From IMG/VR virus record IMGVR_UViG_3300025704_000129, positions 1-22,151 of that record: 22,151 nucleotides of DNA, one strand, 5' to 3'. Position numbers and translations under genes: made by a program. Positions 392 to 18,992 of the stretch are shown here, piece after piece (the first letter of the stretch is position 1; each line of letters opens with the position of its first letter). The notes below the pieces were generated by a model. The model did not search any database. It worked only from the letters and a program-made list of their open reading frames with translations, and was not told where the DNA came from. The stretch is from a virus.

Positions 392-415
392 TGTATAACA
401 ATAGGATAGATGAGA

Positions 416-3331
416 ATGGCCAATAGATTTCCCCTAGTACTTGATACAACGGACAACAACAAGATTAAAGAAATCCAAACTGGGGATAACTTAAACCTTG
501 CAGACAATAGTATCGTAGGTGTGCAGAACATAACTGCACTAGGAACAATTGATGCTGCTGATATAAAGGTTAATGGCAACAGAATTGTTGCTCAAGCATT
601 TAATGATCTAACAGATACTCCAAGTACATTTGTGGGTTCTCCGAACTACTTTGTAAAAGTTAAAGCAGACGGTACCGGATTAGAATACAGATCACTAAGT
701 GATCTAGGCAACATTGAAATTGATACTATTACTGTTGATACTAGTATTGTTCCGAGTACAACAAATGTAGGTAATTTAGGTACAGAAGCATTAAAGTTTA
801 ACGAAATTGTTGCTACTACCCTAAAAGGAAACTTAGTTTCATACAACGAAGAAATTGTATTTGATGCGACAACTGGAAAAGTAAGTTATGCTGCGCTACA
901 AGGTGCTCCAACTTTCCTTTCAGAATTTACAGACGATGTTGGATTTTTAAGAACACAAGATTTAGATGACCAATTAGCTGGGCTGTTTGATGAAGGTCAG
1001 CAATTTGTAACAGACATACAAGGCAGTGTGTTCGGCGACGATAGTACTGTACTAGTAGATGGTGTAAATGGTATTATCACAGGTGATGTTTTAAATTCTC
1101 AAATTACTACAACAGATTTAATCACAACAACTGCAAGAATTACTACAACAACAGCTACTACTATCAACGGACCAGCGGCAGGCAATCTAACAATTGATGC
1201 TGGAACAAGCGGGATTATAAACATAGGCACAGGAGTTTCTACAACTACTGTTAACATCGAAAATGCTGTAATCGAAACATTTGATCAAGGTTCAGGTTTA
1301 GGTGTTGCACAAATCACAGCAAGTACTGATCTAGAAATTACAGCAGGCAACAGAGTCAGAATAGAAGGCGGAATTCCTTTTAGATTTGCTTCAACTACTA
1401 CAGCTCTTCAATTAGCAATTGGCGCTCAAGAAGGCGATGTGATCTACAATACCACATCAAGTCGTTTGCAAATGTATCAAGGCGGCTCGTGGAAAGATGT
1501 AAATGGCAATGTCGAAGCAACAACAGGAACATCAAACTTTAACGACGTAATAGTCGCAGGTAACTTAACAGTACAAGGTACTACTACAAGTATTGAAACA
1601 ACTAACACAGACATTACTGATAATGTTATTACACTAAACAAAGGCGAAGTAGGTGCTGGAGTGACTGCCACTACAGCAGGTATTGAAATTGACAGAGGTA
1701 CAGAAACAAACAAAACATTTGTTTGGGACGATAGTGTTGATAAGTGGACACTAGGAAGTGAAACTCTTGTTGCTGCAACAGTTGAAGCAGCGTTTACTGG
1801 GGTTCTAGGAGGAGTAACTCCAGCAGCAATCACAGGTACAACAATTGACGGTACAACAATTACAGCGACTACAGGATTTGTTGGTAACATAACAGGTGAT
1901 GCGTCCGGTGCGCATACAGGTACATTTGACGGTGAAGTAACAGGTAGTGTATTTGGTGATGACAGCACAATACTAGTAGACGGTGTTGCAGGAATAATTA
2001 CAGGTGATGTTGAAAACACAGAAGTAATTACAACTACTGTACAAGGCAGAGCTAGTGCGGCACTAAACATCTACAGAGGTGCAGGTGGAACAGTTAGTTT
2101 AGGTGATGCATCAAGTGGAGATGTAACAGTCGGCGACAGTGGCATTAACATTACTTCAACAGGCGGAGTTAACGTTAATGGTGCAGCAACCGGCACAGTT
2201 AATATCGGCACAGGTGCTACAACCGGCAATGTTACTATCGGTAAAGCAGGCAATACCACAACAATTGATGGAACATTTAATGCTACACTAACTGGTGATG
2301 TAACTGGCGATGTGTCTGGTAATGTAACTGGTGATATTACAGGTAACATTGATAACACTGCACTAACTATAGGCACAACAGATGCAGCAACAATTGCAAT
2401 CGGTAATGCAGGTAGCACAACTACAATTAATGGAATAGTTAATTTTGGAACAGCACTAGTTGCAGCTAATATTACAGCAGATGATAGTATTATTATTCAA
2501 ACAGACGGCAATAGTGCGTCTGAAGCAATAACACTATTCCCAAAAGGCACAGACACATCGATTTATTTAAGAGCTAATGCACTAAGATTGTTAGGTACAC
2601 CATTTGTAGATTCAATAGCAGCTCAAGGCGGCATTGTTGGAGACATAAAAGGTAGTGTTGTAGCAGACGATAGTACTATACTAGTCGACAGTGTAGGCGG
2701 CAAGATTGTAGGCGATATAGAATCTACAAACATACACGGGCAAGCATTTAAAGCAGATACAATTGTTAATAATACTGGTGATATATTAGATATCACAGCA
2801 GGTACATTCTTAAACATATTTGGCGGAGCAGACGATCTTGGTATATCAAATATACAACTAGACAAGAATGGCATTAATCATATTGAATTAAAAACAGAGC
2901 CAGGAAATCCTCTAGATCCAAGTGACTATGCAAGAATTGCAATCAATGCTGGTACCAATGAAGGCGATGTAAGAATTGGTACTCCGACATCGACAAGAAA
3001 TCAAGTTGTAGAAATATATAATGCAACTGTTACTGGATCGTTAATTGGTCCAGTTACTGGTTCAGTTACTGGTTCAGTTACTGGTTCAGTTACTGGTGAC
3101 TTACAAGGTAGTGTATTTGCAGACGATAGTTCTGTTATGGTAGATGGAGTAAACTATGCAATCTTTAGTGATATGATGACACTAACTCCATTAAATGTAG
3201 AACCAGATTCTCCTGTTAGCGGAATGATAGTAGTAGCAGACGGTGTAAGTTGGGATCCAGGATTTACCGGAGTAGATACTTTAGTAGTGTACTTAAACGG
3301 TGCTTGGCGACAGGTTGCAGCTGGTGTATAA
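416..3331 (+). CDS. Large repetitive virion structural / tail-fiber-like protein
   Basis: I start this at ATG 416 (MANRFPLVLDTTDNNKIKEI, an N-terminus familiar from cyanophage structural proteins). The in-frame ATG at 410 sits only 3 bases after the AGGA box (403-406), whereas 416 is 9 bases away. The 972-residue product is rich in T, G, D, V and N and has no signal peptide or cysteine cluster. It carries four copies of a 23-residue GSVFxDDST-type repeat, TGDV/TGNV tetrapeptide runs (about 2290-2350 and 3047-3100), and TTTINGT-type and IGTGA-type beta-repeats that suggest a beta-helical shaft. A fiber module of the NLTVQGTTTSIETTNTDITD type lies near 1558-1770. Two similar ends, GGSWKDV (about 1480-1500) and NGAWRQV near the C-terminus, hint at internal duplication. 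Its own late promoter precedes it. The exact virion position is unknown. Confidence 0.8.
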   Translation: MANRFPLVLDTTDNNKIKEIQTGDNLNLADNSIVGVQNITALGTIDAADIKVNGNRIVAQAFNDLTDTPSTFVGSPNYFVKVKADGTGLEYRSLSDLGNIEIDTITVDTSIVPSTTNVGNLGTEALKFNEIVATTLKGNLVSYNEEIVFDATTGKVSYAALQGAPTFLSEFTDDVGFLRTQDLDDQLAGLFDEGQQFVTDIQGSVFGDDSTVLVDGVNGIITGDVLNSQITTTDLITTTARITTTTATTINGPAAGNLTIDAGTSGIINIGTGVSTTTVNIENAVIETFDQGSGLGVAQITASTDLEITAGNRVRIEGGIPFRFASTTTALQLAIGAQEGDVIYNTTSSRLQMYQGGSWKDVNGNVEATTGTSNFNDVIVAGNLTVQGTTTSIETTNTDITDNVITLNKGEVGAGVTATTAGIEIDRGTETNKTFVWDDSVDKWTLGSETLVAATVEAAFTGVLGGVTPAAITGTTIDGTTITATTGFVGNITGDASGAHTGTFDGEVTGSVFGDDSTILVDGVAGIITGDVENTEVITTTVQGRASAALNIYRGAGGTVSLGDASSGDVTVGDSGINITSTGGVNVNGAATGTVNIGTGATTGNVTIGKAGNTTTIDGTFNATLTGDVTGDVSGNVTGDITGNIDNTALTIGTTDAATIAIGNAGSTTTINGIVNFGTALVAANITADDSIIIQTDGNSASEAITLFPKGTDTSIYLRANALRLLGTPFVDSIAAQGGIVGDIKGSVVADDSTILVDSVGGKIVGDIESTNIHGQAFKADTIVNNTGDILDITAGTFLNIFGGADDLGISNIQLDKNGINHIELKTEPGNPLDPSDYARIAINAGTNEGDVRIGTPTSTRNQVVEIYNATVTGSLIGPVTGSVTGSVTGSVTGDLQGSVFADDSSVMVDGVNYAIFSDMMTLTPLNVEPDSPVSGMIVVADGVSWDPGFTGVDTLVVYLNGAWRQVAAGV
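1022..1090 (+). repeat. GSVFxDDST repeat, copy 1
   Basis: These 23 codons begin GSVFGDDSTVLVDGV and end IITGDV. This is the first of five copies of a protein repeat found four times in this fiber-like protein and once in the protein encoded at 7460. It is probably a structural turn of a beta-helix or a module boundary (inference). Confidence 0.85.
1943..2011 (+). repeat. GSVFxDDST repeat, copy 2
   Basis: Twenty-three in-frame codons begin GSVFGDDSTILVDGV and end IITGDV, differing from copy 1 at only two positions. A TGEVT-type tetrapeptide stretch precedes it. Confidence 0.85.
2651..2719 (+). repeat. GSVFxDDST repeat, copy 3
   Basis: Twenty-three in-frame codons begin GSVVADDSTILVDSV and end KIVGDI. 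This is the most diverged of the first three copies, but DDST and LVD are kept. Confidence 0.8.
3047..3094 (+). repeat. 12-bp tandem repeat, four units
   Basis: Four head-to-tail 12-bp units, the first GGTCCAGTTACT and then three identical GGTTCAGTTACT, encode GPVT followed by three GSVT. The unit length keeps the frame, so slippage would lengthen or shorten the fiber by four residues at a time without breaking the gene. Confidence 0.95.
3107..3175 (+). repeat. GSVFxDDST repeat, copy 4
   Basis: Twenty-three in-frame codons begin GSVFADDSSVMVDGV and end IFSDM. The last third has diverged. It follows directly on the 12-bp tandem repeat and precedes the C-terminal domain. Confidence 0.8.
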
Positions 3332-3340
3332 CGATAAATA
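3332..3340 (+). promoter_or_regulatory. T4-type late promoter
   Basis: CGATAAATA begins one base after the fiber stop codon and 29 bp before the protease ATG. A ribosome-binding site (AGGAAAAA, from 3349) follows. The next two gene junctions (7449/7460 and 8509/8511) have no late promoter, so this one probably serves the protease and both following genes. Confidence 0.75.
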
Positions 3341-3360: not shown

Positions 3361-6300
3361 ATGAGCGAAAAAGAATATATTGTAAGTTTAAATAAAGGTG
3401 TAGACTACGAAGCCTTTAATCAAGAAATGATTGCGGCAACAGGTGCAGGCGATATTCCAAGACGCTCAGTTGATGTTGCTAATGCAAGACTTTCTTCAAA
3501 CCGCAATACACACTATAGTTTAACTGATGCAGAAGCAGAAACACTAAGTAATGATCCTAGAGTATATGGTGTAACTTTGCTTCCAGATTTAGATCCAGAT
3601 ATTGGGATTGGGTTTGATACAGCCCAAACTGGAGACTTTACAAAAACTACACTGGACCGCGGTGACTTCCTAAACTGGGGTATGCGCAGAATGAACGAAG
3701 CTCTTAACCCGTATGTAGGAGTTAATGTAACTGGCAGCTATAATTATACGTTAGACGGTACAGGTGTTGATGTAGTTATTATGGATAGCGGCCTACAGAT
3801 TGACCATCCAGAATTTCAAGATGCAAATGGTGTAAGTAGAGTTGTAGAACTCGACTGGACAACAGCTAGTGGAATTGTTGGCATGCCTGCACAAAGTGTA
3901 AACTACTACAGAGATTTTGACGGACACGGTACACATGTAGCTGGCACAGCAACAGGTAAAACTTATGGTTGGGCAAAGAACGCTAAAATTTATAGTTTAA
4001 AACTTTCAGGTTTAGAAGGTCCGGGAGATAGCGGAACAGGGACAAGCACAACGTATGCTTTTGATTGTATAAAAGAATGGCACAAAGCTAAGCCAATTGA
4101 TCCTGCAACAGGTGCAAAACGTCCTACAGTAGTTAATATGAGTTGGGGATACCTTAGATTTTATGATACTGTTGTTAGTATGACTTATCGCGGAACTTCA
4201 AAAACTGGAACAGACATTGACTCAACTTCAAAGCGTTGGGCGTTCGGATTGCCGCCGTCCAACAATGGTGTACGATATACTACAAATGTTAGAATACCAT
4301 CAGTTGATGTTGATATGGAAGAACTAATTGACGCAGGCGTACACGTTATGGTAGCAGCTGGCAATAGAAGTCACAAAGTTGACGTAGTAGGGGGCGACGA
4401 TTACGATAATGTACTTGTGGCTAATACTGGATCAGTAAACTATCAAAGAGGTTCGTCGCCTTATAGTGTAAACGCACATATAGTCGGTAACGTAGATAGT
4501 AATATAAATGCAGGAGGATTAGAACAAAAAGCTGAAAGTTCAGAAGCAGGGCCAGGTGTTAGTGTATTTGCTCCAGGCACAGATATTATGAGTGCAATGA
4601 GTACTACAAACAAGTTCGGAGCAACTACGATTAATAATCCGTATCCTGCAAATTCAAGTTTCTTAATTAATAATATAAGCGGCACTAGTATGGCATCGCC
4701 ACAGGTAGCTGGAATGACAGCATTATGGTTGCAATTAAATCCTAGTGCAACGCCTGCGCAAGCACTAGCGTTCGTTAATACTACAGCTAAGACTACTGCT
4801 TTGTATAATACAGGTTCGCCTGCTACTGATTATACTGATACTCGCAGCTTGTTGGGAGCAACAAATAGATTTGCATTTAATAAATTTAACAGTGCAACAC
4901 AACTAACTATGGGCACAGCAGCAGAAGCTGTTGCTCCTGGTGCAGTAGCAACATATTCATTGTCATCAAGTGCAGCAAGTGTTAATGAAGGCAGTAGTGT
5001 AACAATTACTCTTACTACTACTAATGTTGCTAATGGCACGTCAGTCGGGTATCTTATATCTGGCATCGAATCAGGCGATATTAGTGAATCACTCACAGGT
5101 AACTTTACTGTAACTGGAAATACAGCAACAGCTACATTTAATATAACAGCAGATGCGACTACAGAAGGCGTACAAACTATGTTATTATCTCTAATTGGTA
5201 TTAGTGAGTCTGTTAGTGTTACAGTTAATGATACAAGTACTACACCGTTAGTACCTGCTTATGCAGTGTCACCAGCAGCAATCAACGTAGATGAAGGTAG
5301 TGCCTTAGTATTCAACGTTACTACAACTAACGTAAGTGATGCAACTACACTATATTGGAGTGTTACAAATGCAGGCGACTTTAGTACATCAACCGGTAGC
5401 TTTACAATTACAAGTAACGCAGGTTCGTTTAGTGTTACTCCAACTGCTGATGCAACAACTGAAGGCGCAGAAACATTTACTGCAAGTGTGAGAACAGGTA
5501 GTGTAAGTGGAACAATAGTTGCAACTTCGAGTACAGTTACAATTAACGATACAAGTACTACACCTGGCGGCAGCGAATCTTACTCACTTGCTGTAAGTTC
5601 AAGTTCTCTCCAGGAAGGCGAGAAGACAACGTTCACACTTACTACAGCAAATGTAGCTGATGCAACTAGCGTACCATACACAATCACAGGTGTTACTTCA
5701 AGTGATTTGAATACTGGTCCAAGGGCAAGCGGCACAGTAGGAAATACTGTAGGATACGGTAGTAATTTCTTTACTAGAGAAGTTAGAACAGCAGGTGTTA
5801 GATTAGTTAGTGCAGGATCAGTAGGCGGACAAACAGCAGTACCAGATGCATTTATTGAAAAAGTAGCACGTATGTTCCAGTTGTTTACTGATAGTGCAGG
5901 TGCAGGTATTAACGCAGGCAAACAAAACCAAATGATAGAAACATTACTTGGTAATACAACATCTTATCACTCGCCAAAGCCAACTATACAAAGAATTGCA
6001 AGAGGCGCCGGCGGAGATTATACTCCAAACTTCTTAGATGATGCAGGCATACGCTTTTGGGGTTTAGAACCATTGTTTGATGCAACAGTGCAAAACGATA
6101 TGGTTTGGTACTTAAACAGTAGTGGTACTCCTGGAACAGGTGACGAAGATGCACAAGAAGTTATTGAGCATGTATTCCACACACTACACATGCATGGTAT
6201 AGATGCAGTAACATTAAAAATGTATCCAACTCTAAGTGCAGATTGGGCAACTAGTGATTTGTATAACGCAATGGCTGAAGCATTTGATGGCAACTTTTGG

Positions 6301-7449
6301 GATCCATCAGGATATCAAAGTCCATCAAACGCATGGAAGACAGATCCAGATGCATTTGAAGTAGCAGTCAAAGAATACTTGTACTTGCTAAACTTCTGTA
6401 TGTTTGATTATTCAAGTCTATGGGATGGTGAAAGTCTTGCTCCAGAATGGAGTGATAGTCTAAAAACTCCAGCAGGTATACTAGCAAACAACCCATTAGG
6501 TTATGCGTTGTTTAATGCAAACATCGCCGATGTAATTAGTAAGCCATCTTTGGCAACTATTAGAACAATATTCCAAGACGGTGACGTAGGCGATCCAACA
6601 GTCGCAGGCGCATCGGGATATAGTGCAGATGCACCAATTTCATTAACTGGCAACTTTACAGTTAGTTCAAACACTGCTACACTTGAAATCAACACAGCAA
6701 AAGATGGAATCACTGATGGTGATAAAACACTTGCACTTGCGCTAAATAACGGCGAAGCATCAACAAACGTTAGTATTACAGATTCAAGTCAAAATGTTGG
6801 TCCAACTTACTATGCTTATCCAGCAGCCCAATCTATCGACGAAGGTAGTGCCCTAACAATAAATGTCGTAACAACAGATGTAACAGATGCAACTACACTT
6901 TATTGGAGTGTTACAGAAGCTGGCGACTTTGGCGTAACAACTGGTAGCTTTACAATCACAGGCAATACAGGTTCATTTACAGTGACTCCGACAGCAGATG
7001 AAGGAACTGAAGGTGCAGAAAACTTCCAAGTACAAATTAGAACAGGAAGTACTAGTGGTACAATTGTAGATACAACTAATCCAATTACAATTAACGATAC
7101 TAGTACAACTCCTACATTTACGCCAGACTACACAATCACTGTAACAAACGCGGGCAACAGTTATACGCTTTCAGGTACAGATAGAAATGGTGCAGTAAGT
7201 GGGTCGCAACCAACACTGGCATTTAACAGTGGTGATAATGTAAGATTTAATGTAGATGCAGGCACAGCAAGTGCGCATCCATTCTACATTAAAACTTCAC
7301 AAAGTACAGGCACTGGCAATCAAGTGTCGGGTGTTACCGGGGCAGGTACAACACAACTAGATTGGACAACCACTACTGACGGTGCCGGATCATACGGTTA
7401 TCAGTGTTCGATACACTTAGGCATGTGGAATACTATTACAATTACGTAA
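3361..7449 (+). CDS. Virion-associated subtilisin-like serine protease with Calx-beta-like and cupredoxin domains
   Basis: This 1362-aa protein begins with about 80 residues that may be a prodomain, then an S8 subtilase domain (about 105-510). The triad is clear: D142 in MDSGLQIDHPEF, H189 in DGHGTHVAG and S443 in SGTSMASPQ, with the oxyanion N335 in VAAGN. Calx-beta-like repeats follow (about 528-630, 632-735, 740-783 plus 1091-1145, and 1148-1250), several closing with NDTSTTP. The third is split by a ~307-residue insert (784-1090) containing EHVFHTLHMHG and many aromatic residues. The C-terminus (about 1255-1362) is cupredoxin-like, with H1306, C1349, H1352 and M1355. It has no signal peptide. 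A late promoter and fiber-gene neighbours suggest a virion protein that may cut host surface proteins or other phage proteins. That role is inferred; the protease fold is near certain. Confidence 0.9.
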   Translation: MSEKEYIVSLNKGVDYEAFNQEMIAATGAGDIPRRSVDVANARLSSNRNTHYSLTDAEAETLSNDPRVYGVTLLPDLDPDIGIGFDTAQTGDFTKTTLDRGDFLNWGMRRMNEALNPYVGVNVTGSYNYTLDGTGVDVVIMDSGLQIDHPEFQDANGVSRVVELDWTTASGIVGMPAQSVNYYRDFDGHGTHVAGTATGKTYGWAKNAKIYSLKLSGLEGPGDSGTGTSTTYAFDCIKEWHKAKPIDPATGAKRPTVVNMSWGYLRFYDTVVSMTYRGTSKTGTDIDSTSKRWAFGLPPSNNGVRYTTNVRIPSVDVDMEELIDAGVHVMVAAGNRSHKVDVVGGDDYDNVLVANTGSVNYQRGSSPYSVNAHIVGNVDSNINAGGLEQKAESSEAGPGVSVFAPGTDIMSAMSTTNKFGATTINNPYPANSSFLINNISGTSMASPQVAGMTALWLQLNPSATPAQALAFVNTTAKTTALYNTGSPATDYTDTRSLLGATNRFAFNKFNSATQLTMGTAAEAVAPGAVATYSLSSSAASVNEGSSVTITLTTTNVANGTSVGYLISGIESGDISESLTGNFTVTGNTATATFNITADATTEGVQTMLLSLIGISESVSVTVNDTSTTPLVPAYAVSPAAINVDEGSALVFNVTTTNVSDATTLYWSVTNAGDFSTSTGSFTITSNAGSFSVTPTADATTEGAETFTASVRTGSVSGTIVATSSTVTINDTSTTPGGSESYSLAVSSSSLQEGEKTTFTLTTANVADATSVPYTITGVTSSDLNTGPRASGTVGNTVGYGSNFFTREVRTAGVRLVSAGSVGGQTAVPDAFIEKVARMFQLFTDSAGAGINAGKQNQMIETLLGNTTSYHSPKPTIQRIARGAGGDYTPNFLDDAGIRFWGLEPLFDATVQNDMVWYLNSSGTPGTGDEDAQEVIEHVFHTLHMHGIDAVTLKMYPTLSADWATSDLYNAMAEAFDGNFWDPSGYQSPSNAWKTDPDAFEVAVKEYLYLLNFCMFDYSSLWDGESLAPEWSDSLKTPAGILANNPLGYALFNANIADVISKPSLATIRTIFQDGDVGDPTVAGASGYSADAPISLTGNFTVSSNTATLEINTAKDGITDGDKTLALALNNGEASTNVSITDSSQNVGPTYYAYPAAQSIDEGSALTINVVTTDVTDATTLYWSVTEAGDFGVTTGSFTITGNTGSFTVTPTADEGTEGAENFQVQIRTGSTSGTIVDTTNPITINDTSTTPTFTPDYTITVTNAGNSYTLSGTDRNGAVSGSQPTLAFNSGDNVRFNVDAGTASAHPFYIKTSQSTGTGNQVSGVTGAGTTQLDWTTTTDGAGSYGYQCSIHLGMWNTITIT
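5710..6630 (+). other. Globular domain inserted inside a Calx-beta-like repeat
   Basis: Reading across 5710-6630 in frame, the beta-domain beginning at about 5575 (EGEKTTFTLTT, then TITGVTSSDL) stops. It resumes at 6631 as APISLTGNFTVSSNTATLEI, which matches ESLTGNFTVTGNTATATFNI of the first repeat. The ~307 residues between are compositionally different: rich in W, F, Y, H, M and helix formers, with EVIEHVFHTLHMHG (about 6160-6200) as the most distinctive stretch. It looks like a complete domain placed in a loop. The histidine cluster could bind metal, but no canonical HExxH is present. Confidence 0.7.
7120..7446 (+). other. C-terminal cupredoxin-like domain of the protease
   Basis: The last ~105 codons of the protease encode a small beta domain with AHPFYIKTS, a DGAGSYGYQCSIHLGMW segment and a terminal NTITIT strand. 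H1306 plus the C-x2-H-x2-M cluster (C1349, H1352, M1355) has the spacing of a type 1 copper site such as that of amicyanin. Related YxCxxHxxM domains are known from marine phage structural proteins (from memory). Whether copper is bound is not shown. Confidence 0.7.
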
Positions 7450-7459
7450 GGAAACTTAG

Positions 7460-8509
7460 ATGGCAAAACAAGTTATTAATATAGGTTCGGGACAAAATGA
7501 AGGCGATGGCGGCGACCCTAGACTTGCATTTGAAAAAATTAATAGTAACTTTACTGAACTATATGACGGTACTGTTCAAACACTTACACTAACTGGTACT
7601 ACACTTGGCATTAGCGGTGGCAATCAAGTTACACTTGACAACATATTTTTTGACGGCTTAACTACTGATTTAACTGGTAGTGTGTTTGCAGATGATAGTA
7701 CATTACTAGTAGATGGTGTAAATGGCAAGATTGTCGGCGCAGTAGACACAACAAGTTTACGCACAAGCGACAATAATATAGCATTAGGCAATAGTGCAGG
7801 CTTTACTAATCAAGGTGCATATGGCATTGCACTTGGATTTGGTGCAGGCGATACTAACCAAGGCCAAGCAGCAATCAGCATCGGCTACACAGCAGGTCAA
7901 ACAACTCAAGGCAATAGTGCAATAGCAATTGGTCCAAATGCCGGTAACACCACTCAAGGCATCGACGCAGTAGCAATTGGTGTACAGGCCGGTTTAACTA
8001 CTCAAGGTCAATCCTCGGTAGCAATTGGACAAGACGCCGGCCAAGCAACCCAAGGCGCAGAATCAGTAGCAATTGGTAAGGGAGCAGGTTCAACAACTCA
8101 AGGCACACAATCAGTAGCAATTGGTAAGGGAGCAGGTGAAACAAATCAAGCCGCAAACTCAATTGTAATAAACGCAACCGGTGTAGAAGTAAACAACACA
8201 ACAGCAAGTAGTTTAGTAATTAAGCCAATTAGAAATGCTACAATGACAACCATACTCGGTTACGATGTTACAACAGGTGAAGTTACACACAATGCGGTAA
8301 TACCATATCCTGCAAACGCAGGAGTATCTTGGGACGGCGTTGCGCCAACAACAGTAGACGCTGCGCTAGATAGATTGGCATCATATACGCAAGACTTTGC
8401 TGTAGGCACAGCAAGTGATTGGAGTGGAACTCCGCCTACTACTATTATCCAAGCAATTGATAGATTGGCTACTTTAGTTAAAACATTAAACGGCGGCACA
8501 GGAGCATAA
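7460..8509 (+). CDS. Fiber-like protein with YadA-head-type 16-residue repeats
   Basis: The 349-aa product starts MAKQVINIGSGQNEGDGGDP, the shared attachment module, and then has one GSVFxDDST repeat (7676-7744). Eight 16-residue repeats follow (7769-8152) with consensus SVAIGxxAGxTTQG, resembling the left-handed beta-roll of trimeric adhesin heads such as YadA. The C-terminus has two related segments, APTTVDAALDRLAS and PPTTIIQAIDRLAT, which may form a helical trimerisation or tip region. An AAGGAAA ribosome-binding site overlaps the protease stop, 5-6 bases before the ATG. With no promoter in the 10-bp gap, it is probably co-transcribed with the protease. It is likely a trimeric distal fiber or decoration protein (inference). 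Confidence 0.75.
   Translation: MAKQVINIGSGQNEGDGGDPRLAFEKINSNFTELYDGTVQTLTLTGTTLGISGGNQVTLDNIFFDGLTTDLTGSVFADDSTLLVDGVNGKIVGAVDTTSLRTSDNNIALGNSAGFTNQGAYGIALGFGAGDTNQGQAAISIGYTAGQTTQGNSAIAIGPNAGNTTQGIDAVAIGVQAGLTTQGQSSVAIGQDAGQATQGAESVAIGKGAGSTTQGTQSVAIGKGAGETNQAANSIVINATGVEVNNTTASSLVIKPIRNATMTTILGYDVTTGEVTHNAVIPYPANAGVSWDGVAPTTVDAALDRLASYTQDFAVGTASDWSGTPPTTIIQAIDRLATLVKTLNGGTGA
7676..7744 (+). repeat. GSVFxDDST repeat, copy 5
   Basis: Twenty-three codons begin GSVFADDSTLLVDGV and end KIVGAV. It closely matches the copies in the fiber gene 4-6 kb upstream, so a module has been shared between two separate proteins. Confidence 0.85.
7769..8152 (+). repeat. Eight tandem 48-bp repeats (16 aa each)
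   Basis: Eight in-frame 48-bp units encode 16-residue repeats ending mostly TTQG or TNQG and containing AIG and AG turns. Units 6 and 7 are the most alike (both SVAIGKGAG). A ninth, degenerate unit (ANSIVINATG) follows. The regular length and the G and N turn positions suggest a beta-roll. Confidence 0.9.
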
Positions 8510-8510
8510 C

Positions 8511-9257
8511 ATGGCAGTACAATTAATTAATATAGGCAATGTTGCCAACGACGGCACAGGCGATGATCTTCGTGAAGCAATGATCAAAATTAATACAAAT
8601 TTTGAAGAATTAGATTTACGTGATGATGAACAAACTACTGCTAGTAATTTAGGCGATACTGGAGAAGGATTATTTTTTCAAAGAAACAGTTACGACTTAG
8701 AGTTTAAAAAGATCAGTGCAGGTTCAAACATAACACTAACTGCCGATGATAATAAAATTGTAATTGCTGCTGATAGTGGAGTTAGCGATCTAACAATTAC
8801 TGCTGACACTGGCAATGTTGTACTAGACGATAGCGCAGCATTAACTATATCAGGCGGCTCTGAAATCAGCACAACCATTGTAGGCGGTGTACTTACTGTT
8901 GCGTATACAGGTGTTACAGACTTAGTATCAGATCTATCTCCGCAACTAAGTGCAGATTTAGATGCACAAGCAAATAACTTATTAAATGTAGGAACTATTA
9001 CTACAACCGGAATCAATGGTCCTGTAACAGGTAATGTAACAGGTAATCTAACAGGTAATGTAACAGGTGATCTAACTGGACTTGTGCATGGCATTGATAT
9101 ACGTACTATTGCTGGAGATGATCAAGCAGACTTTGGTGCTATTAATCCGGTGATAGAAAATTTATTCCAATATGTTATACTCAATACTGATATCGAATGG
9201 GGCTCATTTACAACTCCAAATACTGCTACGTTTGATTTAGGTGCTATTGCAGTATAA
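8511..9257 (+). CDS. Virion structural protein with attachment module and TGNV repeats
   Basis: This 248-aa protein starts MAVQLINIGNVANDGTGDDL followed by REAMIKINTNFEELD, the shared attachment module. A middle part (about residues 60-150) of short beta-repeats such as SNITLTADDNKIVI and GGSEISTTIVGG leads to GPVTGNVTGNLTGNVTGDLT (residues about 170-190), the same tetrapeptide family as in the large fiber protein. The C-terminus, about 55 residues, has no motif that I recognise. The ATG lies one base after the upstream TAA, so translation is probably coupled. It is likely a fiber or baseplate decoration protein; the exact role is unknown. Confidence 0.7.
   Translation: MAVQLINIGNVANDGTGDDLREAMIKINTNFEELDLRDDEQTTASNLGDTGEGLFFQRNSYDLEFKKISAGSNITLTADDNKIVIAADSGVSDLTITADTGNVVLDDSAALTISGGSEISTTIVGGVLTVAYTGVTDLVSDLSPQLSADLDAQANNLLNVGTITTTGINGPVTGNVTGNLTGNVTGDLTGLVHGIDIRTIAGDDQADFGAINPVIENLFQYVILNTDIEWGSFTTPNTATFDLGAIAV
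9018..9080 (+). repeat. Tandem 12-bp repeat coding TGNV units
   Basis: About five imperfect 12-bp units related to GGTAATGTAACA encode PVT-GNVT-GNLT-GNVT-GDLT. It is the same tetrapeptide family as the repeat at 3047 but with different codons, so the likeness is mainly at protein level. Confidence 0.85.
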
Positions 9258-9297: not shown

Positions 9298-12200
9298 ATG
9301 TTAGATTTATGGAACGTTGCAACTGGAACAAAACTAAAAACTATTATTGAACGATCTTCAGTAAACATACTATTACCTCTTGCAAATGGTATAGTTGCTG
9401 ACATAGAACTTATTAGTGGTAGTATTCCAACAGGCACACGATTAGAAAATAGTATAATAACAGGAACTGTGTTTGAAGTTGCTTATGATACAATATTTAC
9501 GGCTGTATTTAGAGCAACTACTGATGACGGATTTCAAGATTGCACTATAGAATTTATAGTTACTGGGCCTGATAGCCCAACATGGCAAACTAATGAAGGA
9601 TTGTTAGCTGTAGGTTCGAATAACAGTCTGTTTATCCTTGATAATGAAATTATTGATTATCAATTAGTAGCAACTGATACAGATTTGAGTGCAGGCGATG
9701 AGCTTAGTTATTTTATTGCAGATGGAGACGGTGTATTACCTCCAGGTATTACACTAAGTGATACTGGTAAACTACAAGGTACTACAGAGCCGCTTCTTAG
9801 TTTAGATAAAAGGTACACTGGCGGACAATACGATAGTGCGCCGTACGCTGGACTACCTATGGATTATACTGTACTAAGTTCAAATGGTTACGGTAGTTTT
9901 TATTATGATACTGTTGATTTTGATTATAACGAGCCAACAGCAAATTTAAGAAAATTAAATAGATATTATCCGTTTGCTGTTACAGTTACAGACGGCGAGA
10001 ATTTTGTTCGTAGAGAATTTAAGATTTATCTTGTAGGCGATGATTATCTAAAAGCAGATAACACTATTATGCAAGCAAGTACAGGTGTATTCACAGCGGA
10101 TAACACAGATGTGAGAACACCAGTTTGGATTACTCCTCGTGATTTAGGATTTAAACGTGCTAATAATTATACAACAATATATTTAGAAATTGTCGACAAC
10201 TGGACACTAGAAGGTGTTGTAGTTTATACTCTTGAAGATGTTAATGATGATGGCACTCCGAGCGAATTGCCGCTAGGAATGGCACTAGACAGTCAAACAG
10301 GCGAAGTAGTTGGACGTATTCCTTATCAGACTGCTATTACACAAGATTACAAATTTACAGTAAGAGCAACACGTATTACAACAGATTTAGATACAGTTAC
10401 AATATTTGCAAACTATTACGAAGATGTCTTATTAGGAAATTCTAGTTTTAAAATTAACAAAATTAATTTAACTGGCGACATAGACGGTACTAATGACCTA
10501 TTTGAATTAGTTGGTAAAAAGATTCTGTTAGGTAAAAGACAATATACAGTTATTAATGTTGATGACCGAAATGTAGATTATGATGTAATATTTGTAAATG
10601 AAACTCTTGCACCAAACATCAATTTATTATTAAGTCAAACTGCACAAATTGGTCAAGATCATATGTTTGTTTCTCGATTAAATGAAGCAGACAAATCAAA
10701 GTATCAAGGTAGAACATTAACATTTTCAAATACCGAATCGTATAATATAAACGGATTTACTCCCTACATTGAATGGCAAATTACGCAAACTACAGAAAAT
10801 AATCCAATTTTACCTGCTAATGCACCTAGAGTGATTGAAGTAAACACAAATTATTATGTTGGTGATTACGTTGTTAACACTGTTGAAACTGGCGGCGACG
10901 GAAAAATATATCAATGTACAGTGTCTCATTCGGTTACATCACAAAAAGACGAGTTTGGTGATGATGTACTATCTAATGGAATTATACAAATAAATTTTAT
11001 AGGTACAAACTGGAATGAAGTTGCAGAAACATTAGAAGGACTTAATGTAAATGACAGAGTTACAGCTACTAAACAGTCACTTGAAGCAGAATACAATGGT
11101 ACTGCATATATTACAGTAGTTGACAGTTTAAATTGGAGAGTAAGAGTTCCTAGTACTGCATATTCAAGAATTAAAACAAATATACAGGCATTTTTTAGTA
11201 GTGAAGATAGCAGTAATGTTATTGCAACATTAATACGCGACAACGAAGATAAAATAACACTTAGTACAAATTTAAGCTCACAGTTAAATAATGGCAGAAA
11301 TATTGGTATTGCGTTATTTGAAAAAGATAGTTTTTTCAAAAATATAATTGTTGCTGCAAATGACGAAGTTGATATACCTAGTACAGTTAAGACATTTGAA
11401 ATACGTGTAATTGGCGAAATTGATTCAAATATCAAATGGATATCACCAAGCGACTTAGGATTTATTAATGCTAACTTTACAAGCACTTTAAAATTAATTG
11501 CTGAAACAACTGTACCAGATACTGCTATGATTTATACACTTAAATCTGGTAAATTGCCATTTGGATTGACACTTGCTTATGATGGTGAAATTATCGGTGC
11601 AGCTAGACAATATGGCACAGTCGATGACCCTGGATTAACTATATTTGAAAACAAAACGGTTACTTGGGACGGAGCACTTCCAGGTGACACTACGTTTGAC
11701 AGAAACTATAAATTTACAGTTGAAGCAAGGGATAGATTTAACTACACTGCAATTGAACGAGAGTTTACTCTAAAAGTTGCAGACTTAGATAATACACAGT
11801 ATACTGACATTTATATGCGTCCGATGTTATCTGCAAAACAAAAAAGATATTACAAAGACTTTATAAGTAATCCAGAAGTATTTACACCTGAAAAAATTTA
11901 TAGATCTAGCGATTCCACTTTTGGAGTTCAAAAGAATTTAGATATGCTTGTTTATGCAGGAGTCGAAGCAGTGTCAATAGATAAGTTTATTGCAGGGGCT
12001 GCAAAAAATCATAAGCGTAAAAAATATATATTAGGGGAAATTAAAAGTGCTGTTGCAAAAGAGTCAGCTACAAGTGATACTATATACGAAGTGGTATACA
12101 TAGAAGTTAAAGACCCAGCAAATTCAACTACCGGCAATAAAACCGCTACTAGTTTTAAAACGGTAAGCAAAGAAAAGATTACAGTCGATAGTGTACAATA

Positions 12201-12807
12201 TGCAGTAATTGACAATACAACTAGATTCAGAGTAGGCTACAATGAATTAGCTGTGTATACTAGAAATACTGTGCGTTTTGTTTTTAGTGATTTAGACGAA
12301 ATAACAATCGAAACTAGAACAACTAATGATCAAGAACTAAATGTAGATAATCAAGATTTTGAAATCACTGTTAGAGATGGCGGAACAGTTGAAATTGAAT
12401 TACAAAAAGGTGACAGCGAACCATATCGTTTTAGACCTAAGACTAATACTATTAAAACAGATAGTAATGCAATCAATGTTAGTCAGTCAACTGACTCAAT
12501 TAAATATATATCTAGTATAGATAATATGAGAGCTAATATTAAAACTATCGGAGACGAGGAACGTTATTACTTACCCTTATGGATGCGCACTGCACAAGAA
12601 GGATTTCAAGAATTAGATTATGTAACTGCGATACCGATTTGCTATTGCAAGCCGGGTGAATCAAAAAATATAATGAATAACATTAAAAACTACGGATTTG
12701 ATCCAAAAACAATTAACTACGATATAGACAGATATATCGTGAAACGAACTGAAAATTCCGATGTCGAAAAATTTGTCCTGTTCGCAAATTACCAATTCAA
12801 CGTATGA
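9298..12807 (+). CDS. Large virion structural protein with Ig-like (He_PIG/cadherin-like) modules
   Basis: This 1169-aa protein (MLDLWNVATGTKLKTIIERS) resembles a long conserved structural protein of T4-like cyanophages. Putative Ig-type modules are seen as ISGSIPTGTRLENSIITGTV (about 39-58), GVLPPGITLSDTGKLQGT (about 149-166), LPLGMALDSQTGEVVGRIPY (about 324-343) and LPFGLTLAYDGEIIGAARQY (about 750-770). Each has the P-x-G-(I/M/L)-x-L...G-x-(I/V)-x-G pattern of the He_PIG family, followed by a YKFTV(R/E)A strand in the last two. The C-terminal ~300 residues are charged and lack this pattern. There is no signal peptide or membrane segment. Its own late promoter and position between fiber genes support a tail-fiber or baseplate-proximal role. 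The exact place in the virion is not known. Confidence 0.75.
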   Translation: MLDLWNVATGTKLKTIIERSSVNILLPLANGIVADIELISGSIPTGTRLENSIITGTVFEVAYDTIFTAVFRATTDDGFQDCTIEFIVTGPDSPTWQTNEGLLAVGSNNSLFILDNEIIDYQLVATDTDLSAGDELSYFIADGDGVLPPGITLSDTGKLQGTTEPLLSLDKRYTGGQYDSAPYAGLPMDYTVLSSNGYGSFYYDTVDFDYNEPTANLRKLNRYYPFAVTVTDGENFVRREFKIYLVGDDYLKADNTIMQASTGVFTADNTDVRTPVWITPRDLGFKRANNYTTIYLEIVDNWTLEGVVVYTLEDVNDDGTPSELPLGMALDSQTGEVVGRIPYQTAITQDYKFTVRATRITTDLDTVTIFANYYEDVLLGNSSFKINKINLTGDIDGTNDLFELVGKKILLGKRQYTVINVDDRNVDYDVIFVNETLAPNINLLLSQTAQIGQDHMFVSRLNEADKSKYQGRTLTFSNTESYNINGFTPYIEWQITQTTENNPILPANAPRVIEVNTNYYVGDYVVNTVETGGDGKIYQCTVSHSVTSQKDEFGDDVLSNGIIQINFIGTNWNEVAETLEGLNVNDRVTATKQSLEAEYNGTAYITVVDSLNWRVRVPSTAYSRIKTNIQAFFSSEDSSNVIATLIRDNEDKITLSTNLSSQLNNGRNIGIALFEKDSFFKNIIVAANDEVDIPSTVKTFEIRVIGEIDSNIKWISPSDLGFINANFTSTLKLIAETTVPDTAMIYTLKSGKLPFGLTLAYDGEIIGAARQYGTVDDPGLTIFENKTVTWDGALPGDTTFDRNYKFTVEARDRFNYTAIEREFTLKVADLDNTQYTDIYMRPMLSAKQKRYYKDFISNPEVFTPEKIYRSSDSTFGVQKNLDMLVYAGVEAVSIDKFIAGAAKNHKRKKYILGEIKSAVAKESATSDTIYEVVYIEVKDPANSTTGNKTATSFKTVSKEKITVDSVQYAVIDNTTRFRVGYNELAVYTRNTVRFVFSDLDEITIETRTTNDQELNVDNQDFEITVRDGGTVEIELQKGDSEPYRFRPKTNTIKTDSNAINVSQSTDSIKYISSIDNMRANIKTIGDEERYYLPLWMRTAQEGFQELDYVTAIPICYCKPGESKNIMNNIKNYGFDPKTINYDIDRYIVKRTENSDVEKFVLFANYQFNV

Positions 12808-12837: not shown

Positions 12838-13428
12838 ATGGCCAGCAACATTATAAGCGGAACTATTGACGGAGCATATCCAGTAGCAGGTGTCGACAAC
12901 GATACGCAAGGCTTTCGTGACAACTTTACAATTATTAAAACAGGATTAGCAACAGCAGCTAGTGAAGTAACTGCTCTTCAAGCTAACACTGCTAAATTAA
13001 ATGTATCTAATGATTTTAACGGAACAGATATTACAGATGCTAACTTTTCGTTAAACACAGAAAAATACCATAACATTGGTACAGTTATTACAGGGCAAAA
13101 CATTAGTTTTCTAAATGGACATTACCAGAGTGCAACTATTAACTTATCTGAAGGAACAAGCACAATTAACTTTGCGCTAGCAGATTGGCCAGAACGTGAT
13201 CATGTTGCTAAAATGACAGTGCAGTTATTTGGTAATGACACTGCTAAAACTGTAACTTTTACAGTTGATGGCGGCGGCACTATTAAATATAACGCAGATT
13301 ATCCTAGAGTGGCCAGCATTGCAACTGCTACAGTAGATAGTAGTACTGATCCTGTTATCATTGATTTTTGGACATATAATCAAGGCACAACTGTATACGC
13401 AGAATACAGAGGACGGTTTGAAGACTAA
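12838..13428 (+). CDS. Virion structural protein with variant attachment module
   Basis: The 196-aa protein starts MASNIISGTIDGAYPVAGVD followed by NDTQGFRDNFTIIKTGL, a diverged form of the shared module in which the GFRDNF core replaces AFDKVNDNF. A possible coiled coil follows (ATAASEVTALQANTAKLNV, residues about 40-60). The rest is a beta-rich domain ending DFWTYNQGTTVYAEYRGRFED. A late promoter and a ribosome-binding site precede it, and its TAA overlaps the ATG of the next gene by one base. It is probably a small decoration, fiber or neck protein; the function is inferred from context only. Confidence 0.7.
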   Translation: MASNIISGTIDGAYPVAGVDNDTQGFRDNFTIIKTGLATAASEVTALQANTAKLNVSNDFNGTDITDANFSLNTEKYHNIGTVITGQNISFLNGHYQSATINLSEGTSTINFALADWPERDHVAKMTVQLFGNDTAKTVTFTVDGGGTIKYNADYPRVASIATATVDSSTDPVIIDFWTYNQGTTVYAEYRGRFED

Positions 13429-13676: not shown

Positions 13677-14195
13677 ATGCTTATGAAAACAGATGAACTA
13701 GGTATTCTACGATTTAGTAATCGCGATCTTATTGATATGATCTATAGTGGTCATGTGGATAAAGTGCATGTGGTATTGTGCGATGCTAACGACGATGTAG
13801 ACAAGTTCAACGCCGCTATGGAAGAACAAGGCTTTGACAAACTACAAAAATATATTCCGCTAGATGTAGATCAAAAGACTTTTGACGGTGTATGTCAAGG
13901 TGAATGGTTTATGCCTGATGAATACAAGAATATGGATGTGCGTGACTATGTTATCAAAAAATGTCCGGGCGAGTATTTTGAAAGATGCTTTGAAGAATTA
14001 AATGAGTTTGAAAAGCGTGGAATGGGAAATTTGTTACGCTATATGGTGTATCTTGTAGACTTTATGCGTGAGAATAACATTGTATGGGGCGTAGGACGTG
14101 GATCAAGTGTAGCAAGTTATGTGCTGTATTTGATAGGTGTGCATCGTATAAATTCAATCCAGTTTGACCTGGATTGGCGAGAGTTCTTAAGATAA
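13677..14195 (+). CDS. DnaE-like (DNA polymerase III alpha) partial-domain protein
   Basis: The 172-aa protein (170 aa if ATG 13683, MKTDELGILRF, is used) ends with VWGVGRGSSVASYVLYLIGV followed by HRINSIQFDLDWREFLR. This closely follows the GRGS...LGI...DPL...FLN segment of bacterial C-family polymerases (DnaE/PolC). In those enzymes that segment immediately precedes the PDxDxD catalytic motif. Here the gene stops just before it, so it cannot polymerise by itself. The first 120 residues include MDVRDYVIKKC and no motif that I recognise. Similar short DnaE-like proteins are known in T4-like cyanophages (from memory). No Shine-Dalgarno sequence precedes either ATG, and the promoter predicts a leader of 0-6 nt. 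The role is unknown; nucleotide or DNA binding is plausible. Confidence 0.7.
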   Translation: MLMKTDELGILRFSNRDLIDMIYSGHVDKVHVVLCDANDDVDKFNAAMEEQGFDKLQKYIPLDVDQKTFDGVCQGEWFMPDEYKNMDVRDYVIKKCPGEYFERCFEELNEFEKRGMGNLLRYMVYLVDFMRENNIVWGVGRGSSVASYVLYLIGVHRINSIQFDLDWREFLR

Positions 14196-16619: not shown

Positions 16620-16941
16620 TATCGACGGCACTATCTGTAAAGAAGTAATTATACCTAACAGTGGTGGAAAGAAAGACTACGCTAATCATATTCCGATGCC
16701 AGAACGCATTGCTAAAGTAAATGCACTATACAATGCAGGACATACAATCAAATATATGACAGCACGAGGGTGTGTTAGTGGTGTAAACTATTTTGAACTT
16801 ACTTATAAACAGCTAATGGACTGGGGCGCAAAGCATCACGAACTAAGTGTAGGCGAAAAAGAAAACTACGATATTTGGATTGACGACAAAGCATTTTGGA
16901 GTGAAAACTTCTTCCGTGAAACAGGAGAGTCATATGAGTGA
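16603..16941 (+). CDS. HAD-superfamily phosphatase
   Basis: The 112-aa protein starts at TTG 16603, eight bases after GGAG. It has HAD motif I MKYVIDIDGTIC (nucleophile D6 and D8), motif II T53 in YMTARG, and motif IV D94/D95 in IWIDDKAF. It is small, with hardly any cap domain, so it may act on a phosphorylated macromolecule, sugar or nucleotide. It overlaps the fructose-bisphosphate aldolase gene by 8 bp, which suggests a joint role in sugar-phosphate flow, but the substrate is inference only. Similar small HAD proteins are common in T4-like marine phages. Confidence 0.8.
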   Translation: MKYVIDIDGTICKEVIIPNSGGKKDYANHIPMPERIAKVNALYNAGHTIKYMTARGCVSGVNYFELTYKQLMDWGAKHHELSVGEKENYDIWIDDKAFWSENFFRETGESYE

Positions 16942-17743
16942 TCACAGATTTATTGCAGCAATGGATCACAGTGGTGGCTCAACTGGTGGCGTATTAGAAC
17001 GCTATGGACAAGCGTACACAGAAGCAGACAAGATGGAGAAAGTTCATACTATGCGTCTTAGAATGGTCAACAGTCCTGACTTCAACGACAGTAACATCTG
17101 GGGAGCAATCCTCTACCAAGACACAGTCACACGTGGCATGGTTAACATCTTGGATGAAAAAGGTATTGACACGTTCCTAAAGATTGACAGTGGATGTGAC
17201 GAAGATGGCACACTCAAACAGTTTCCAGTAAAGCAGATGTTGGAGTGGGCTACAAACGGCATTGGTCCCAAAATCTACGGCACTAAGATGCGTAGCATTG
17301 TACATGGTGTAGGAATGATTCATCCTGTACTCAAACAACAATTTACCCTTGCTCGTACTATTTGGGAGCATGGGCTTGTACCTATTATTGAACCAGAAGT
17401 GCCCATTGATCATCCTATCAAAGCTGAAGTCGAAGACGCTCTTATGTATCACTTGCAAGAGTTCTTAGATGAATATCCAGGCAAGTGTATTCTCAAACTA
17501 ACGCCGCCGGAAGTGCCCAACTTGTATCACAACCTTACAGTGTTTCCTAATGTAGAACGTGTTGTGTTTCTAAGTGGCGGATACAGCACAAACGAAGCAT
17601 GTAATAAACTAGGTCTTAATGATAACGTAACTGCCAGCTTTAGTAGAGCATTGTCAGAAGGATTACGTTATGACTTGACAGACGAAGATTTTAATGCTAA
17701 AATGAGCAGTAACATTAAACAAATAACAAAGGCAAGTGAATGA
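16934..17743 (+). CDS. fba: Class I fructose-bisphosphate aldolase
   Basis: I place the start at ATG 16934 (MSDHRFIAAMDHSGGSTGG), six bases after AGGAG; an upstream in-frame extension to 16880 lacks this context. The 269-aa protein matches the bacterial class I aldolase family. D11 lies in AAMDHSGGST, K83 in FLKID, K118 in KMRSI, E153 in PIIEPEVPI, and the Schiff-base lysine K188 in ILKLTPPEVPNLY, followed by SGGYSTNEACNKL. It cleaves or forms fructose 1,6-bisphosphate from DHAP and glyceraldehyde 3-phosphate without metal. As an auxiliary metabolic gene it could feed gluconeogenesis and pentose-phosphate flux for nucleotides (inference). It is slightly shorter than typical bacterial versions (about 295). 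It overlaps the HAD gene (8 bp) and gp44 (ATGA). Confidence 0.9.
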   Translation: MSDHRFIAAMDHSGGSTGGVLERYGQAYTEADKMEKVHTMRLRMVNSPDFNDSNIWGAILYQDTVTRGMVNILDEKGIDTFLKIDSGCDEDGTLKQFPVKQMLEWATNGIGPKIYGTKMRSIVHGVGMIHPVLKQQFTLARTIWEHGLVPIIEPEVPIDHPIKAEVEDALMYHLQEFLDEYPGKCILKLTPPEVPNLYHNLTVFPNVERVVFLSGGYSTNEACNKLGLNDNVTASFSRALSEGLRYDLTDEDFNAKMSSNIKQITKASE

Positions 17744-18654: not shown

Positions 18655-18992
18655 CTTACATTGTAAATGATGCATGTATTAAATGCAAACATATGGATTG
18701 TGTTGAAGTATGCCCTGTAGACTGTTTTTACGAAGGCGAAAACATGTTGGTGATCAATCCAACTGAGTGCATTGACTGCGGAGTATGCGAACCAGAATGT
18801 CCGGCTGATGCTATCCTTCCTGATACTACACCCGGTGCAGCAGACTGGGTAGACTTTAATCAAAAGTATTCAGACCTTTGGCCTGTAATTACACAAATGC
18901 GTCCAGAAGATACTCCTGCAGATGCAGAAGACTGGCACGGCGTAGAAAACAAAATGGAGTTCTTTAGTGAATCTCCAGGAAAAGGAGACTAA
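18651..18992 (+). CDS. fdxA: Seven-iron ferredoxin (FdxA type, [3Fe-4S][4Fe-4S])
   Basis: The 113-aa protein starts [20 protein letters not shown] and carries the cysteines of an Azotobacter-type 7Fe ferredoxin: C9, C17, C21 and C12/C25 near the N-terminus, then C40, C43, C46 and C50 in [12 protein letters not shown]. The long C-terminus ([20 protein letters not shown]) and SPGKGD end are typical of alphaproteobacterial FdxA. It transfers electrons at low potential; the partner in the infected cell is unknown. It overlaps gp44 by ATGA, so it is co-translated with a replication protein. It was probably acquired from an alphaproteobacterial host (inference). It differs from the plant-type [2Fe-2S] ferredoxin carried by cyanophages. 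Confidence 0.92.

Follow-up and report, generated by a model that had tools for sequence, protein, structure and literature searches.

What does a subtilisin-like serine protease of family S8 do among the tail and fiber genes of a phage? The question is raised by a 22,151-nucleotide stretch of viral DNA (IMG/VR record IMGVR_UViG_3300025704_000129, positions 1 to 22,151; the whole stretch is referred to here as the window), in which a protein of 1,362 residues is encoded on the plus strand at positions 3361-7449 from an ATG start codon. The reading we favor, at a probability of about 0.5, is that this protein is a zymogen synthesized in the cytoplasm of the host at a late stage, is built into the tail, and acts on host surface protein. 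Polysaccharide-degrading phage tailspikes are well known; if tail display is true, a protease zymogen of the secreted type would be used by phages to breach a protein surface layer. Loci and contigs collected for comparison are referred to by L and G numbers, respectively. The gene and the element ahead of it are divided as follows.

3332-3340, plus strand: CGATAAATA, a T4/cyanophage-type late promoter-like element (sequence search)
3361-3660, plus strand (residues 1-100): I9-like propeptide and linker (model fold and 3afg alignment; no signal peptide by eye)
3661-4890, plus strand (residues 101-510): S8 subtilase catalytic domain, proteinase K type (Pfam, alignment, and model)
3784-3786, 3925-3927, 4363-4365, and 4687-4689, plus strand: active-site codons of D142, H189, N335, and S443, respectively
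4948-5715, plus strand: tandem beta-rich repeats (DNA repeats D1-D3; uninterrupted repeat in L027; Calx-beta-like by eye)
5716-6636, plus strand (residues 786-1092): nested globular domain (ND; about 302 residues) of no named family, in a beta-repeat loop
6637-7125, plus strand: remainder of the interrupted beta repeat and last repeat (DNA repeats and L027 comparison)
7126-7446, plus strand (residues 1256-1362, about 107 residues): cupredoxin-like domain with predicted ligands H1306, C1349, H1352, and M1355

The S8 domain and its predicted propeptide

The 1,362-residue protein was found to match Pfam Peptidase_S8 (PF00082) at an E-value of 1.8e-27 (96.8 bits against a curated cut-off of 21.8), and keratinase, aqualysin, and proteinase K were among its phmmer matches to solved structures. 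The triad D142/H189/S443 and the oxyanion residue N335, which a preliminary description made from the sequence alone had named, are as stated there and lie inside the Pfam S8 domain, in the motifs VIMDSGL (D142), FDGHGTH (H189), AAGNRSH (N335), and SGTSMAS (S443). An AlphaFold model of residues 1-528 was built from 32 alignment rows (predicted local distance difference test [pLDDT] 83.7; predicted template modeling score [pTM] 0.88), and by structural alignment its S8 domain has the subtilisin fold, as illustrated by keratinase 5wsl (Z 36.9, root mean square deviation [rmsd] 2.5, 275 residues aligned) and aqualysin I 4dzt (Z 36.4). Conservation of the active site was counted over 61 distinct S8 rows, the window included. 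The Asp was kept in 57 rows (2 gaps, N in L083 and Y in L090), the His and the oxyanion Asn in 60 each (1 gap each), and the Ser in 57; the four Ser gaps come from L016, which stops at a contig edge, and from L065, L073, and L090, which are cut-outs ending before this residue, with no substitution among the rows aligned there. Triad and oxyanion Asn were intact in all eight aligned loci of isolated phages (L120-L127) and in nearly all relatives, even where identity falls to about 26-31%. Loss of the triad in close relatives, which had been named as one of the findings that would speak against the earlier reading, was looked for and the triad was found to be kept. We consider it very probable that the window protein is an active protease. 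The divergent S8 homologues encoded at L083 5626-8430 and L090 862-4032 bear ND, lack the catalytic Asp, and are possible dead proteases.

The N-terminal part of the model was examined for a propeptide, a part that the preliminary description had missed. Its first 75 or so residues are predicted to run beta-alpha-beta-beta-alpha-beta, which we take to be the element order of an I9 propeptide, and are followed by a linker (residues 87-102) at pLDDT below 50. The solved pro-form 3afg was aligned from model residue 1 onward (Z 31.1, rmsd 3.6, 343 residues). Pfam I9 gave no match on the N-terminal part of the protein, and no signal peptide was seen by eye at the N-terminus. With the I9-like propeptide of the model, the protein is probably a zymogen.

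Location in the particle and possible targets

Relatives of the S8 protein were examined for a link to the virion. In the cyanophage S-SCSM1, protein S-SCSM1_228 (1,411 residues; S8 and a laminin-G-type domain) bears the note 'virion protein', a label that by our own count is borne by 48 coding sequences (CDS). Virion mass spectrometry of this phage reported 45 proteins according to passages of PMC9602691, and the three that those passages name as non-structural (ORF91, 213, and 214) all bear the label. Several structural genes are without it, so that the label is selective. In the Agrobacterium jumbo phage Atu_ph07, CDS 284-329 are named as a virion-protein cluster in the passages on proteomics of PMC6102473; the end member, gp329, is S8 fused to a homologue of the He_PIG neighbor of the window gene. 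Because gp329 closes the range given in those passages, we infer that it was detected in Atu_ph07 particles. Overall, it is likely that the S8 protein is located in the virion, and the virion-borne subtilase of the preliminary description is retained at this strength.

The gene was also described earlier as lying between fiber-like genes, which was borne out by a recurrent tail and fiber gene order. Its neighbors in the window are as follows.

410-3331, plus strand: 973-residue gene, fiber-like by eye, directly upstream; recurrent neighbor (no Pfam or PHROG match)
7460-8509, plus strand: 349-residue gene with YadA_head repeats (Pfam 20 bits, cut-off 25) and a tail-spike PHROG match; inconstant neighbor
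8511-9257, plus strand: 248-residue gene with a T4_gp9_10_N (baseplate) domain (Pfam and PHROG); recurrent neighbor
9298-12807, plus strand: 1,169-residue He_PIG (Ig-like) protein; recurrent neighbor, homologue fused to S8 in Atu_ph07
12838-13428, plus strand: 196-residue recurrent neighbor behind a CGATAAATA element
13677-14195: 172-residue protein with a match to a segment of DNA polymerase III alpha (Pfam E 4.1e-11; PHROG 11127); recurrent neighbor

Wherever the locus reaches far enough in L003-L038, the order is the 973-type fiber gene, S8, the 248-type gp9/10-N gene, the 1169-type He_PIG gene, the 196-type gene, the polC-like 172 gene, and a 138 gene; some loci have partial neighbor matches, such as L035-L037, in which the match to the 973-residue gene is short. 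Among isolated phages, the gene preceding S8 is a baseplate wedge/tail-pin gene in S-H38, S-CREM1, and Sf-FR1, and fiber genes lie nearby in P-SSM2, S-WAM2, and S-RSM4. On the 3′ side of S8, S-H38 has a virion structural gene, and S-CREM1 has a hypothetical gene with a baseplate wedge gene after it.

The T4-type late promoter of the preliminary description was upheld in part, as the near-consensus CGATAAATA is present ahead of the S8 gene; the exact TATAAATA does not occur in the window, and the element is mostly unconserved in relatives. The same 9-mer was also found ahead of 410, 9298, and 12838. ATAAATA lies 26-31 nucleotides upstream of the starts at 410, 3361, 9298, and 12838, which accounts for four of the five plus-strand copies, and this placing before four virion-type genes has a binomial P-value of 3e-6 for 18 gene starts that we chose ourselves. 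The total of five copies on the plus strand and none on the minus strand does not exceed the mean expected from a Markov model, 5.85. Of 45 distinct S8 upstream regions, six contain ATAAATA, including that of the window, which is common to L003; a conserved late promoter ahead of the S8 relatives was thus rejected.

Joined together, these observations can be arranged into a mechanism. Late translation in the cytoplasm of the host would yield a zymogen, in which the I9-like propeptide would help the proteinase K-type S8 domain to fold and block it until removed, presumably by the enzyme itself. The S8 domain would be the constant part, behind which sits an exchangeable beta-repeat stalk, optionally with a cupredoxin and a roaming ND. 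The protein would be incorporated into or onto the tail alongside the fiber and gp9-type proteins; on the particle exterior, it may break down proteinaceous surface layers of the host or protein in its outer membrane, which would help the fibers to reach their receptor. The appended modules may serve for binding, for redox chemistry, or as a second enzyme, the cupredoxin and ND thereby tuning the protease to the host. Of this chain, the analysis itself bears out the protease family with its triad, the modeled propeptide fold, the recurring gene order, the gain and loss of modules, and the pattern of copper ligands, and it supports the place in the virion indirectly; self-cleavage, the exterior position, the host-surface substrate, and the roles of cupredoxin and ND are proposals. 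Architectures were counted in a set of 37 loci, some of which are near-copies of each other: 13 have the protease alone (propeptide and S8), 14 a cupredoxin without ND, 8 a cupredoxin and ND, 1 has ND inside S8, and 1 is truncated. The first three of these natural versions make the host-setting part testable.

Several points weigh against this reading: (i) the link to the virion was observed not in this phage but in relatives of about 25-31% identity, and it is drawn from an annotation label and the bounds of a gene cluster instead of peptide tables; (ii) S8 is unnamed in passages of the S-CREM1 proteome account, which gives 14 proteins detected, nine of them of unknown function; (iii) no S8 appears in the S-CREM2 proteome table as excerpted, the gene content of S-CREM2 for S8 being unchecked; (iv) L039 is without a match to any of the usual neighbors; and (v) the catalytic Asp is missing in the two divergent homologues L083 and L090. 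The host surface as the target of the protease is put at even odds.

A role in head maturation was considered and rejected. A gp21-type S77 protease was found in all 11 complete phage records searched, 9 of which bear S8; because S77 is present in addition to S8 in each of these nine genomes, S8 is no substitute for gp21, and the earlier separation of the subtilase from gp21 holds. No S77 was found among the Pfam matches of the 1,362-residue protein up to an E-value of 1. Among 11 viral contigs, one (G345) gave an S77 match; contigs, as fragments, are little informative here. The alternative that survives best is maturation of the tail. S8 would then act during assembly, on neighboring fiber or baseplate proteins or on the C-terminal stalk of its own protein, and would play no part at the host surface. 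This alternative draws on the position of the S8 gene beside fiber and gp9-type genes in L003-L038, on the propeptide, which permits timed activation, and on the 13 of 37 loci with propeptide and S8 alone, which suit a diffusible assembly enzyme. We regard it as rather doubtful, since S8 is patchy (46 phage records at an E-value of 0.01, against 326 with the gp9 cupredoxin considered below), gp21 already covers head maturation, and the fusions to laminin-G, Ig-like, and cupredoxin modules suit display better than assembly. An intracellular effector, that is, a late protease which stays out of the particle and breaks down proteins of the infected host, would agree with the lack of a signal peptide by eye and with the late-type promoter element; the virion label of S-SCSM1_228 and the fusions to virion-type modules oppose it, most I9-propeptide subtilases and most cupredoxins are generally known to function outside the cytoplasm, and we consider it improbable. 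Least credible is a dead protease scaffold, its S8 fold kept just as a structural or adhesive module of a binding protein, for the missing Asp of L083 and L090 stands against a triad and oxyanion Asn intact in the window, in nearly all relatives even at about 26-31% identity, and in 8 of 8 isolated-phage loci.

The nested domain and the cupredoxin

The C-terminus, described earlier as beta-rich, does contain beta repeats; in addition, it holds the globular ND inside one repeat and a cupredoxin, both of which had been missed. The repeats of the 1,362-residue protein gave no Pfam match to the Calx-beta family.

ND was modeled from 55 rows at high confidence (pLDDT 92.1, pTM 0.92). Its long helix (model residues 142-160, residues 927-945 of the protein) holds E933-x-x-E936-H937-x-x-H940, with E973, Y985, and E1005 downstream. 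Over 73 distinct ND segments, E933, E936, H937, H940, Y985, and E1005 are conserved at 100% and E973 at 96%, and all seven were kept throughout a 12-row alignment in which a cellular relative of 24% identity was included; H943 and H945 are absent from that relative. Encoded at L145 1015-1905, in a genome that belongs to the order of the L134 genome, it retains ExxEHxxH as well as the Glu and Tyr further on. Comparisons of ND gave nothing significant (i) against PDB by Foldseek (best E 0.37, an M30 zinc metallopeptidase) or PDB sequences (best E 0.66); (ii) against BFVD (best E 1.7); (iii) against Pfam with 55 members (best E 0.11 and 0.13, unrelated families); or (iv) against NCBIfam. In VIA-align, 49 of the 50 listed entries were by our own count zincin proteins, the best at Z 7.1 (rmsd 5.2, 158 residues aligned). 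Pro-Pro endopeptidases (Z 7.1-6.3) and anthrax lethal factor (Z 6.2-4.8, with the higher rows on its N-terminal domain) were at the top, and collagenase T, aminopeptidases, lugdulysin, and thermolysin-like enzymes were further entries; Z values below 8, as all of these are, count as weak and possibly reflect just a common arrangement. HExxH is absent from ND, which has E936-H937-x-x-H940 (EHxxH) in its place. Because it is without HExxH and its fold likeness is weak (Z at most 7.1), ND was not filed as a plain zincin metallopeptidase; a metal site in ND is a conjecture drawn from the conserved residues. ND as an intein was likewise rejected. Inteins begin with Cys or Ser and end in His-Asn; the ends of ND are by eye of the SGYV(V)D type, and host loop residues are replaced instead of an exact insertion being present.

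The carriers of ND were surveyed next to its sequence. A tblastn search with ND alone found 85 places in 85 phage records, all at 60-80% identity and all named Synechococcus or Prochlorococcus phages or cyanophages, many of them S-RIM2 and S-RIM12 isolates. Among viral contigs, 140 ND relatives were matched and the best 80 retained, some of the collected loci overlapping. Within the collected loci, ND was present in 93 open reading frames (ORFs; the 73 distinct segments mentioned above), 47 of them without an S8 match; with ND masked, the 93 carriers fell into 10 clusters by single linkage, a procedure that may over-join repeat-rich proteins. The position of ND also varies, as it is (i) C-terminal to S8 in L056 and its kin; (ii) in the S8-fold loop between the catalytic Asp and His in L037, L053, L054, L080, L112, and L115; (iii) within a beta repeat in the window and L028; and (iv) between the halves of a Pfam YHYH domain in Syn33_094 and S-RIM2 (profile positions 89-139 before, 155-183 or 155-187 after). 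In the last case, about 170 residues of other sequence separate the first half from ND, which is thus not the sole insert. Passages of PMC7824862 propose YHYH domains to be tail-associated metal-dependent hydrolases, and passages of PMC7029224 group them with carbohydrate-binding and host-recognition domains.

Movement of ND was followed in matched pairs. In L035 and L037, a 7-residue loop corresponds to 316 residues with ND, and the protein flanks are 80% and 84% identical; in L027 and L028, an ordinary repeat corresponds to ND, and DNA identity is 92% over the first 2,616 nucleotides and 78% over the last 651. In a tree built quickly from 46 S8 rows, the minimum was 13 changes in architecture and 7 in ND presence; this tree left out L016 and L065 (short), rows without a propeptide match, and isolated-phage rows, took 19 of its 46 rows from the ND-based fetch, and has long branches for L073, L039, L042, L048, and L055. 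ND identity to the window showed no significant correlation with S8 identity (Spearman 0.20, P = 0.25, n = 34). A 1,675-nucleotide block (5537-7202) is common to the window and L041-L043 at 87.7% DNA identity, while their S8 domains are just 44-46% identical. Its right end falls within the cupredoxin, outside any repeat; its left end lies on a copy (5536-5564) of a 29-nucleotide linker repeat, family D2, whose five copies match the reference at 66-100%, which suggests that homologous recombination at repeats may have moved the shared block.

One full ND was found in each of the 14 ND-bearing contigs among 20 searched, and in G345, ND (in a 4,835-residue frame) and S8 (in a 538-residue frame) are separate proteins of the same phage. 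A second, partial ND match was observed at the contig edge of G351, the contig of L071, at 3-317 in a different open frame. One ND per phage, together with a free choice of carrier, would fit a domain that is needed on the particle at no exact spot. Four genome contigs whose titles name Actinomycetota, Acidimicrobiia, or Candidatus Actinomarinales also encode ND, at 60-64% identity. Matches to it were obtained in 8 of 42 genomes of that order, several of them partial; a search for distant cellular relatives in 296 genomes of the phylum matched the starting genome alone. The Actinomycetota ND proteins gave no Pfam match above cut-off. At L134 5755-6855 and L136 5683-6888, ND makes up the body of a protein of 366-401 residues with a lipoprotein-type N-terminal signal by eye, and the neighboring genes look chromosomal (fabF-like and ppdK-like by eye). 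On sequence grounds, ND is thus common to a lipoprotein-like cellular protein and to phage proteins of predicted virion type. Tentatively, and with less confidence than for the placing of the protease, ND may represent a new family of catalytic domains, portable and probably dependent on metal, which is exchanged in frame between unrelated phage virion proteins (protease, baseplate wedge, and fibers), usually at one copy per phage, and shared with lipoprotein-like Actinomycetota proteins; the window tail protein would then have two hydrolase-like domains and a blue-copper domain. In any case, ND is strongly conserved, is modeled with confidence, and moves among loops that belong to quite different folds, and its chemistry, once known, would annotate baseplate proteins of 85 cyanophage records.

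In the cupredoxin, the type-1 copper ligands His, Cys, His, and Met were invariant in all 22 aligned rows, and a profile of this alignment matched copper nitrite reductase (E 1.2e-8), amicyanin (5.1e-6), and plastocyanin (2.9e-5). The window domain alone scored 18.0 bits against Pfam PF00127, below the curated cut-off of 21.2; 18 of the 22 members matched PF00127 at E-values up to 1, the best at 8.1e-5. Copper binding by the C-terminal cupredoxin is probable given its predicted ligands. A cupredoxin-like C-terminus was also observed in gp9, the baseplate wedge tail fiber connector of cyanophages (for example L001 11511-11810 and the gp9 genes of L002 and L150-L153), and the domain was matched in 326 phage records. 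In an alignment of 10 cupredoxin rows, six of them gp9, every row has the four copper ligands. The baseplate wedge protein Syn33_094 (L001 11817-16982) has by eye a cupredoxin-like stretch of the form HPM..C..H..M. The gp9 cupredoxin raises the separate question of whether T4-like tails bear copper sites.

Host hints and comparison with known systems

To judge from its other genes, the window phage need not be a cyanophage. A ferredoxin (18651-18992) scored above the FdxA_Protbact cut-off of NCBIfam, and the top-ranked rows were Sinorhizobium phages for the thymidylate synthase and Pseudomonas jumbo phages for the clamp-loader. At 16937-17743, a class I fructose-bisphosphate aldolase-like gene was observed (NCBIfam E 1.4e-70, below cut-off; Pfam Glycolytic above cut-off). 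The aldolase-like gene and the ferredoxin are possible metabolic genes and hint at a proteobacterial host.

Compared with proteinase K-type subtilases (aqualysin I, Meiothermus keratinase, and a cold-adapted subtilisin-like proteinase), the window protein has the same triad, oxyanion Asn, and fold (Z 36.9-33.9 over 266-275 residues in the first 17 rows); unlike these enzymes, it is phage-encoded in a tail cluster, has no signal peptide that could be seen, and carries exchangeable C-terminal modules. Zincins of the Pro-Pro endopeptidase and anthrax lethal factor type bear a weak fold likeness to ND only, which is without their HExxH. The cyanophage baseplate wedge proteins of PHROG 708 (Syn33_094 and S-RIM2 SWTG_00062) contain ND at 67% identity and have no S8 match; the PHROG 708 model is 1,383 positions long, about 340 shorter than the 1,721 residues of Syn33_094. 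In Atu_ph07 gp329, S8 and He_PIG form one fused protein, whereas they are separate ORFs in the window, and no cupredoxin was found in gp329 by Pfam and PHROG scans.

Further counterparts are the S8 proteins of T4-like cyanophages, which are annotated as subtilisin-like serine protease in S-H38, S-WAM2, Sf-FR1, and S-H9-1, as 'peptidase' in S-CREM1, and as 'baseplate wedge subunit' in S-SCSM1_228. The phage-record S8 proteins are 26-35% identical to that of the window. PHROG 9158 is common to the window protein (E 9.9e-88) and S-SCSM1_228 (E 3.9e-116), with a similar gene neighborhood, and the S-H9-1 protein ends in a cupredoxin, as does the window protein; ND was found in none of the nine complete S8-bearing phage records searched. 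The literature was screened by title and abstract start, and no open-access study of a cyanophage virion subtilase or a phage-tail cupredoxin was found. An S8 peptidase was named for P-HM1 and P-HM2 in a 2010 comparison, according to passages of PMC3037559. The preliminary description had named no established role for such a protein in T4-like phages; the proteins themselves have precedents there in that naming, the several annotated records, and the virion-labelled relative. Thus, phage S8 proteins were already known, whereas the combination of S8, ND, and cupredoxin in one protein and the roaming of ND between carriers seem to be new.

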